DNA of 64,000 nt, from assembly GCF_039542385.1 (NCBI RefSeq), contig NZ_BAABIA010000002.1:372001-436000 (forward strand). The letters are read 5' to 3'. The position numbers and the translations under genes are program-made. The notes under the pieces are model-generated. The model did no database searches and was not told the origin of the DNA. It worked only from the letters and a program-made list of their open reading frames with translations. Of the stretch, positions 9,857 through 12,219 are shown piece by piece. Position 1 is the first letter of the stretch, and each line of letters begins with the position of its first letter. Source of the stretch: Prosthecobacter algae. Its GTDB lineage: Bacteria > Verrucomicrobiota > Verrucomicrobiia > Verrucomicrobiales > Verrucomicrobiaceae.

Positions 9857-11221
9857 TCACCCGATCTGCGCCAGGATCGCCGAGGCGATCTTGTCGGCCT
9901 GGGCTTCGAGGTACTCCACGTCGCGGCCTTCAATGAGCAGGCGGATGAGGGACTCCGTACCGGAGTAGCGCAGCAGCACACGACCGTAGTCGCCCAGCTT
10001 CTTCTCCGTTTCCTTGATGATCTTCTGGGCATCGGCCAGCTCTGTGATCGGCGGCTTGCTGCGCACGCGCAGGTTGCGGGCGGCCTGGGGGAATTTTTTG
10101 AGGCACTTGCGCAGGTGGCTCAGCGGCTCGCCTGTTTCCTTCATGATTTTCAGCACCTGCAGGCCGGCGATGAGGCCGTCGCCCGTGGTGGCCCAGTCGC
10201 CAAAGATGATGTGGCCGCTCTGCTCGCCACCCAGGTTCAGACCGCGGGAGTGCATTTCCTCCAGCACGTAGCGGTCGCCCACATTGGTGCGGATCACGCG
10301 GCCACCCAGGCGGGAGACGAGGTCGTCCAGGCCGTAGTTGCTCATGATGGTCACGGCCAGCGTGTTCTGCTTCAGCGTGCCTTTGCGCAGCATGGACTCG
10401 GCAGCGATGGCCATCAGTTCATCCCCATCCAGGGCGATGGCTTCCTCGTCACACAGGGCGATGCGGTCCGCATCCCCATCATGGGCGATGCCGGCCTGCG
10501 CCTGGGACTGGCGCACCAGACGCTCCAGCTCCTCGCTGTGCGTGCAGCCACACTCCTCATTGATGTTAAAGCCGTCCGGCTCACTGTGAAAGACCTGCAC
10601 GTCCGCACCCAGTTGCTCCAGCGCCAGCGCACTGGTGTAGGAGGCAGCGCCGTGGGCATTGTCCAGCGCCACCCGCATGCCGTCCAGCCGCAGGCCGCCC
10701 ATGCTGGCCACCGCGTGGGCCACGTAGCGCTCCACACTGTCTGCCATCCGGCTTACTCGGCCGATGCCACGCCCTTCTGGACGGGTGGCCTCTTCGGTAT
10801 TGCCGAGGACGATCTTCTCGATGGCGATTTCCGTCTTGTCGCTCAGCTTGCGGCCGTTGCCGTGGACGAACTTGATGCCGTTGTCTTCAAAAGGATTGTG
10901 CGAGGCGCTGACCACCACGCCAAAGTTAGCCCCGGTCTGCGCGGCCAGCATGGCCACGGCAGGGGTGGGCACCATGCCTGCGAGGACGACATCCACCCCG
11001 GCGGAGTTCAGACCTGCGATGAGGGCAGACTCCAGCATCTCCCCGGAAGCGCGCGTATCCCGCCCGATGATGCAGCGGGGCCGGTCGCCCCCTTCAGTCC
11101 GGCTTCCCAGCACAGCCGCCGCCGCCTGCCCCAGGCGAAGGACAAACTCAGGGGTCATGGGATGGCGATTGGCCACGGCGCGGACGCCGTCGGTGCCGAA
11201 GAATTGACGCTTTTCAGACAT
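9857..11221 (-). CDS. glmM: Phosphoglucosamine mutase GlmM
   Basis: Interconverts glucosamine-6-phosphate and glucosamine-1-phosphate for UDP-GlcNAc and peptidoglycan synthesis. It is 454 aa, standard length. All four active-site loops are present: phosphoserine loop VSASHNPFEDNG (catalytic Ser about 107), metal loop DGDADR, sugar loop GEQSGHI, and phosphate loop RYSGTES near the C-terminus. It is the last gene of the cdaA, CdaR-like stub, glmM operon, 58 bp after the stub. In Firmicutes GlmM binds and inhibits CdaA, so the gene order suggests the same partnership here (inference). Confidence 0.97.
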   Translation of the reverse strand: MSEKRQFFGTDGVRAVANRHPMTPEFVLRLGQAAAAVLGSRTEGGDRPRCIIGRDTRASGEMLESALIAGLNSAGVDVVLAGMVPTPAVAMLAAQTGANFGVVVSASHNPFEDNGIKFVHGNGRKLSDKTEIAIEKIVLGNTEEATRPEGRGIGRVSRMADSVERYVAHAVASMGGLRLDGMRVALDNAHGAASYTSALALEQLGADVQVFHSEPDGFNINEECGCTHSEELERLVRQSQAQAGIAHDGDADRIALCDEEAIALDGDELMAIAAESMLRKGTLKQNTLAVTIMSNYGLDDLVSRLGGRVIRTNVGDRYVLEEMHSRGLNLGGEQSGHIIFGDWATTGDGLIAGLQVLKIMKETGEPLSHLRKCLKKFPQAARNLRVRSKPPITELADAQKIIKETEKKLGDYGRVLLRYSGTESLIRLLIEGRDVEYLEAQADKIASAILAQIG

Positions 11222-11279: not shown

Positions 11280-11435
11280 TCACACGGCACGCAGGGGCGG
11301 CAGGGGCGGATAGTCGCGCGGCCCCACGCTGATCTGGCTCTTGATCATGAACCAAAACAGAAAGGCCAGCAGCAGCGCCACGAATTTTTCGCGCCAGTTG
11401 CGGGTGAAAAAGTTTTTAAACTGGTCCCAGGTCAC
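11280..11435 (-). CDS. 51-aa membrane stub resembling the CdaR/YbbR N-terminus
   Basis: Starts at GTG 11435. The choice rests on a strong AGGAGG (complement of 11445-11450) nine bases upstream, although the frame is open to 11477. The product is WDQFKNFFTRNWREKF, then a hydrophobic segment (about residues 18-32, ALLLAFLFWFMI), then a short proline-rich tail. That Asn-Trp-Arg-x-Lys plus one membrane span is how CdaR/YbbR proteins begin, and the position between cdaA and glmM is exactly the cdaR position. The extracellular YbbR domains are absent. It overlaps the end of cdaA by 20 nt, so it is translationally coupled. It may be a minimal CdaA regulator or a degenerate remnant; no frameshift debris was recognised in the 58-bp gap to glmM. 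Confidence 0.7.
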   Translation of the reverse strand: MTWDQFKNFFTRNWREKFVALLLAFLFWFMIKSQISVGPRDYPPLPPLRAV

Positions 11436-12219
11436 GGGTCGGTTCCTCCTGCACGGGTTCGGGGGCGGCAGCGCCAAAGGTCAGCAGCTCATTCAGACGG
11501 TCGCGTAGTTCCTCTGGCTCAAGGTCGTGCTCCAGCTTGCCCCGGTAGGCCAGGGACAGGGCTCCGCTTTCCTCACTCACGATGAGGGCGATGGCGTCGG
11601 TCTCTTCGGTCACGCCCATGGCGGCGCGGTGGCGCAGGCCGATGGCGCGGTCCCGCACCTCCCTCTGGCTGACGGGGAAAACGCAGCCCGCTGAGGCAAT
11701 GCGGCCCTGGTCGATGATGGCCCCGCCATCGTGCAGGGCCGTCTTCGGATGAAAGATGGTGGTGATGAGTTCCGGTGAAAGGCGTGCATCCACGCTCACC
11801 CCCGTCTCCGCCAGCAGGCGCAGGTCAATGCCGCGCTTGATGGCAAAGAGCGCCCCACAGCGGCGGGCGGAAAGCTGCTGCATCGCCTCCAGCAGCACGT
11901 CCAGCGATTCTGGATCCGGCCGGTTCAGCGAAAACATGCGGTGGCTGCCCAGCTCCGCCAGCACGCGCCGCAGCTCCGGCTGGAACAGCACCACCAGGGC
12001 GATGGCCAGGAAAACCGAAATGCGCTGCAGCAGCCAGGTGATCACCTCCAGCTTCAAAAGCTGCGAAACCAGCGCCAGCCCCAGAAGTAGCATGAGCAGC
12101 CCCGTGAGGATGCGTGCCCCGCGCGTGGCGCGGAAGAACAGGTAGGCCTGATAGACCAGCACGGCGAGGATGAGAATCTCCACGCCATCGCGCCAATGCT
12201 GTTTTAGGATTTCCCACAT
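11416..12219 (-). CDS. cdaA: Diadenylate cyclase CdaA (c-di-AMP synthase)
   Basis: Condenses two ATP to c-di-AMP at the membrane. It is 267 aa. Three hydrophobic segments fill residues about 13-80, followed by the DAC domain with the catalytic LHDGGAII (DGG about 164-166) and GLRHRAAMG (RHR about 196-198), both intact. The C-terminal 40 residues are acidic and variable. It heads a three-gene minus-strand operon with the CdaR-like stub and glmM. The only other tie to the window is indirect: c-di-AMP controls osmolyte and potassium balance in other phyla. Confidence 0.95.
   Translation of the reverse strand: MWEILKQHWRDGVEILILAVLVYQAYLFFRATRGARILTGLLMLLLGLALVSQLLKLEVITWLLQRISVFLAIALVVLFQPELRRVLAELGSHRMFSLNRPDPESLDVLLEAMQQLSARRCGALFAIKRGIDLRLLAETGVSVDARLSPELITTIFHPKTALHDGGAIIDQGRIASAGCVFPVSQREVRDRAIGLRHRAAMGVTEETDAIALIVSEESGALSLAYRGKLEHDLEPEELRDRLNELLTFGAAAPEPVQEEPTRDLGPV
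11445..11450 (-). promoter_or_regulatory. Shine-Dalgarno that fixes the GTG start of the CdaR-like stub
   Basis: AGGAGG on the minus strand inside the 3' end of cdaA, nine bases before GTG 11435. Confidence 0.75.

Follow-up and report, generated by a model that had tools for sequence, protein, structure and literature searches.

Background

In Firmicutes, CdaR and the diadenylate cyclase CdaA contact each other via their membrane domains, as seen in two-hybrid assays (PMC10243994), and YbbR has been found to contact the membrane region of CdaA (PMC6368335; PMC8573169). CdaR has been reported to be an activator or a repressor, depending on the condition (PMC8573169); in S. aureus, YbbR has no clear effect on the activity of DacA (PMC6368335), and in Porphyromonas gingivalis c-di-AMP rises 2.4- to 2.6-fold when cdaR is lost (PMC9259658). 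Furthermore, CdaA depends on active higher oligomers, which are blocked by GlmM; the mechanism by which CdaR controls CdaA has been described as unclear (PMC8573169). In the literature that we searched, which lay largely outside subscription journals, we found nothing on a CdaR that consists of the helix only, nor on YbbR domains in connection with Verrucomicrobia.

Here, we analysed a stretch of 64,000 nucleotides from Prosthecobacter algae ("the window"), for which a preliminary description had proposed that a very small gene between cdaA and glmM encodes a minimal CdaR.

A short gene between cdaA and glmM

All features of the window described here lie on the minus strand. The gene cdaA (11416..12219), which encodes the membrane diadenylate cyclase (Pfam CdaA_N and DAC; NCBIfam equivalog TIGR00159), is followed by an open reading frame of 51 codons at 11280..11435 and then, after a gap of 58 nt, by the phosphoglucosamine mutase gene glmM (9857..11221; four Pfam PGM_PMM domains). 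A direct reading of the sequence gives a GTG start codon at 11433-11435, preceded by an AGGAGG ribosome-binding site (11445..11450) with a 9-nt spacer. The 5' end of the short frame overlaps the 3' end of cdaA by 20 nt (11416..11435, from the coordinates of the frames), and the same offset of -20 is found in most congeners. We call the encoded protein (VTWDQFKNFFTRNWREKFVALLLAFLFWFMIKSQISVGPRDYPPLPPLRAV) the stub. It has a single membrane helix and matches no Pfam or NCBIfam family (Pfam down to E 10), and the YbbR domain (PF07949) is absent from the entire genome, even at E 10. The reading frame with its start and ribosome-binding site, its place in the cdaR slot and its lack of YbbR domains, all of them given in the preliminary description, were confirmed from the sequence, Pfam and the genome search. 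Since the 58-nt gap before glmM is too short, no broken CdaR can be hidden there. The order cdaA, CdaR-related gene, glmM on one strand is present here and across Verrucomicrobiaceae.

The helix of the stub and the N-terminal helix of full-length CdaR are homologous. We built an HMM from 47 CdaR proteins whose genes follow cdaA in other Verrucomicrobiota classes, aligning their first 110 residues without anchoring on any stub. This HMM matches the stub of the window with 35 bits (E 7.2e-10), which bears out the earlier remark that the protein has a YbbR-like membrane N-terminus; among the window's 1590 six-frame segments there was no other match, the next having E 2.2. It also recovers every one of the 99 distinct stubs, each with at least 14 bits. 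When the stub profile was compared with CdaR N-termini by hhalign, with the CdaR side anchored on the helix pattern, the probability was 97.8 over 30 aligned positions, and region-shuffled decoys generally scored far lower. Searched against the 6.1-Mb genome, the stub profile finds this one place (E 1.3e-15; the runner-up has E 1.06).

The homologous part in the window comprises the motif N-W-x-x-K-x6-A-x3-W-x2-I and the membrane helix (residues 13-31; 11343..11399). In full, the motif of the stubs reads N-W-x-x-K-[LI]-x-[SAC]-L-x-L-A-x3-W-x2-[IV], and over the 99 distinct stubs the conservation of its columns is W 92, K 97, A 97 and W 98. A forced alignment in which stubs were placed on the N-terminus of CdaA had hinted at a similarity with CdaA's own first helix; this was not supported, the comparison reaching at most 4.8 bits.

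Compared among seven close relatives, the core of 30 codons has a pS of 0.50 and a pN of 0.13, and the values for the tail are similar (pS 0.53, pN 0.13). Judged by these values, the amino acids of the stub are under purifying selection. The tail itself (11283..11342) is short, proline-rich and predicted to lie outside the cytoplasm, and its C-terminal PLPPLRAV is invariant in the close relatives compared. Tails differ among lineages and are conserved inside them, for example PLPPLRAV near Prosthecobacter and EIRRSHP in Akkermansia, so that a small role on the outer side is possible. EIRRSHP, a possible outer motif, ends the stubs of the Akkermansia lineage (L009-L017, L120, L127, L263, L264), including one that is fused to CdaA (L127). 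A different kind of tail, 75-90 residues long, rich in Gln and Glu and coiled-coil-like, is seen in three Akkermansiaceae stubs (L109, L110, L116; g138) and looks like an outer part newly grown on the same helix.

Occurrence across the class

We searched 188 whole genomes of the class Verrucomicrobiae with the stub profile at a cut-off of E 0.01. A DAC was taken to be of the CdaA type at E 1e-31 or better, and this split between DAC types is our reading of a gap in the E-values. The helix was found in 111 of the 188 genomes, namely in 111 of the 142 with a CdaA-type cyclase and in none of the 46 without it (37 with another DAC type only and 9 without a DAC); the 111 profile matches include some longer forms besides the helix-only ones. 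Fisher's test gives p 2e-23 for the co-occurrence, a value that is not a true probability because the genomes are related. The 37 genomes that have only the weaker-scoring DAC type and no stub belong to the families f3, f5, f9, f10, f12, f13 and f57 of the class.

Nearly all matches (108/111) directly follow the DAC on its own strand, the median distance from the end of the DAC to the motif being 97 nt, and the remaining three lie beside glmM. The stub follows CdaA in the genus, in the family, in Akkermansiaceae and in many further families of the class. Named carriers are Akkermansia muciniphila (L263, L264), Rubritalea marina (L260), Roseibacillus persicicus (L224), Verrucomicrobium sp. BvORR106 (L201), Terrimicrobiaceae (L216) and Candidatus Udaeobacter (L244), and the stub is kept even in genomes of 0.9 Mb (G036, G057). 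The gene after the stub varies: it can be glmM or, in Akkermansiaceae, a bioD-like gene, with no glmM following within the stretch analysed. The adjacency of cdaA and stub is kept in both cases. The only cases found in which the stub is parted from cdaA are three genomes of the family f88 (L272-L274; G405, G422, G442), where a helix-only stub lies by glmM and cdaA is on a different contig. In one genome (L099; G251, f54) a longer frame terminates in a CdaR-type helix some 300 nt behind cdaA, and the charged, Ala-rich N-terminal extension of this frame may be an artefact of the start site.

One subclade, mostly of the family f53 with some of f52, and a few others have CdaA and no stub detectable genome-wide. 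The stub is therefore not indispensable, and some of these lineages (mostly f53 and part of f52) appear to have lost it later.

Probable loss of the YbbR domains

A survey of the phylum detected YbbR in 109 of 194 genomes, and none of those listed belongs to Verrucomicrobiae. CdaR proteins of other classes mostly have about 310-370 aa and multiple YbbR domains; in 22 genomes of these classes, every match to the CdaR helix beside CdaA lies in a frame of at least 321 aa, and no helix-only form was found. Several genomes of the class without a strong stub match have the same helix in the same slot with a longer outer part. For example, YbbR occurs in two stretches of L275 (E 3.8e-17) and in one of L277 (E 7.8e-8), and in L286 the match is below the cut-off. 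Fewer than 100 residues follow the conserved W in 194 of 206 loci of the class and more in 12, some genomes being counted twice.

We computed a quick CdaA tree with 104 rows, in which many forks are weakly supported. Mapped on this tree, the helix-only and YbbR states need two changes. One clade of 59 rows (support 94) contains 46 of the 47 helix-only rows, three fusions and rows without a recognised CdaR, and the intermediates fall outside it. The simplest reading of the tree is one truncation plus one outlier (L267).

Furthermore, the stub is in some genomes part of CdaA itself. In L068, in L072 with its relative L201 (Verrucomicrobium sp. BvORR106), and in L127, the frame of CdaA continues over a linker and takes in both helix and tail. 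The CdaA tree places these fusions as three separate events, and well supported branches leave no alternative for two of them. As the DAC domain lies in the cytoplasm, a helix fused behind it should begin there as well, in line with the N-in orientation predicted for the free stub. A further single open frame, in another class (L184; G130, f15), joins CdaA to a full-length, CdaR-type protein with several YbbR-like stretches.

According to the preliminary description, a full-length cdaR in relatives together with pseudogene debris in this strain would speak against a minimal CdaR. Full-length genes were found only in other classes, the 58-nt gap holds no debris, and the gene shows purifying selection among near relatives as well as conservation throughout the class. 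Strong support for the description's central idea, a CdaR cut down to its membrane span, comes from the homology of the helix, the slot, the conservation in the class, the intermediates that form a series of domain loss, and the in-frame fusions to CdaA, next to the observed purifying selection and co-occurrence with CdaA.

Possible role and alternative explanations

We consider it likely that the stub is a CdaR eroded to the membrane helix that contacts CdaA, and that it has been kept as a small constitutive subunit of CdaA. The extracytoplasmic YbbR domains would have been lost in the ancestor of a large clade of Verrucomicrobiae, leaving the N-terminal helix of CdaR, which selection would have maintained since. 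The stub is predicted to insert with its N-terminus in and its C-terminus out and probably binds the three-helix membrane region of CdaA, a contact for which the in-frame fusions speak indirectly. As a constitutive subunit, it would set the assembly of CdaA dimers and hence the rate of c-di-AMP synthesis, in a direction that our model does not predict, and the part of CdaR that senses the outside would no longer be involved. A helix that stands next to CdaA, and is at times fused to it, after the loss of the sensor fits such an assembly-setting membrane subunit. From the membrane contact in Firmicutes and from the pattern of conservation, we infer that the helix would be enough to regulate CdaA. 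In a covariation analysis of CdaA residues 9-92 against the helix, the top pairs lie in the first helix of CdaA (26/-1, 36/-3, 22/+10), and pairings permuted within close clades score similarly.

More tentatively, and with a chance that we put a little below even, the helix may be the functional core of CdaR in general. The YbbR sensor would then be an optional outer module that can be lost stepwise, with the helix staying or joining CdaA, and in most CdaA-type lineages of the class CdaA would be run with a helix-only partner.

The main partner of the stub could also be GlmM or the cell-wall machinery, with the stub tethering GlmM to the membrane. Its place between cdaA and glmM in the window and the three f88 genomes in which it lies beside glmM, with cdaA on another contig, would suit this. 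However, in Akkermansiaceae the next gene is bioD-like and the adjacency to cdaA is retained, all fusions found join the helix to CdaA only, and the stub does not occur in any of the 46 class genomes that lack a CdaA-type cyclase; we regard GlmM as an improbable main partner. To the same small degree we would expect a split CdaR, in which the helix would cooperate with an extracytoplasmic sensor that comes from a separate gene and escapes recognition as YbbR. The lineage-conserved tails PLPPLRAV and EIRRSHP would make suitable docking sites for such a sensor, but the genome is without a YbbR match at E 10 and in neighbourhoods that were viewed unsystematically we saw no further gene that regularly accompanies the stub.

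The overlap with cdaA and the strong ribosome-binding site could mean that the frame matters only as a leader for translational coupling to the downstream gene. This is very unlikely, given that its amino acids are conserved throughout the class despite differing downstream genes, that it is homologous to the CdaR helix, and that its fusion into CdaA in several genomes leaves no separate leader. The least probable explanation is a pseudogene remnant of a full-length cdaR, open by chance: full-length CdaR does exist in other classes of the phylum, yet the same helix-only gene extends over many families of the class, with pN far under pS, motif residues (W, K, A and W) that hardly vary, a 58-nt gap free of debris and retention in the 0.9-Mb genomes, and an independent truncation would be required in every genome.

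If the stub is indeed an eroded CdaR, a conserved natural CdaR without YbbR domains separates the function of membrane contact from the outer sensor, and it offers a natural test case for whether the CdaR helix, with nothing else of the protein, is able to influence the synthase and set c-di-AMP synthesis. It also represents an overlooked family of small proteins, unnamed in Pfam and NCBIfam, which includes that of the gut bacterium Akkermansia.

Comparison with known systems

The stub shares with CdaR/YbbR proteins (of Firmicutes and of other Verrucomicrobiota classes) the homologous N-terminal helix with the pattern [ND]-[WF]-x-x-K-x6-A-x3-[WYF], the position right after cdaA and the single membrane span. 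It differs in that it has no YbbR domain, a length of about 40-110 aa instead of about 310-370, and a short lineage-specific tail. Closer to it are the CdaR proteins of the class with one or two YbbR domains (L275-L281, L286, L288-L291), which have the same helix and the same slot after cdaA, with glmM next in nearly all of them. Unlike the stub, they keep a longer outer part; of three such proteins given to Pfam, L275 and L277 show a recognised YbbR.

The fusions can be compared with the streptococcal CdaA-CdaR fusions (PMC10243994). In both, the CdaR helix and CdaA are in one chain, whereas in L068, L072/L201 and L127 the fused part consists of the helix and a short tail only.

Whether the stub belongs to the CdaR/YbbR family depends on the definition. 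Where at least one YbbR domain (PF07949) is demanded, the stub, which has none, is not a member. On the other hand, it has a membrane helix homologous to the N-terminus of CdaR and its gene lies directly downstream of cdaA; as far as can be read from the sequences, its slot and the origin of its helix make it a CdaR of which the first helix alone is left.
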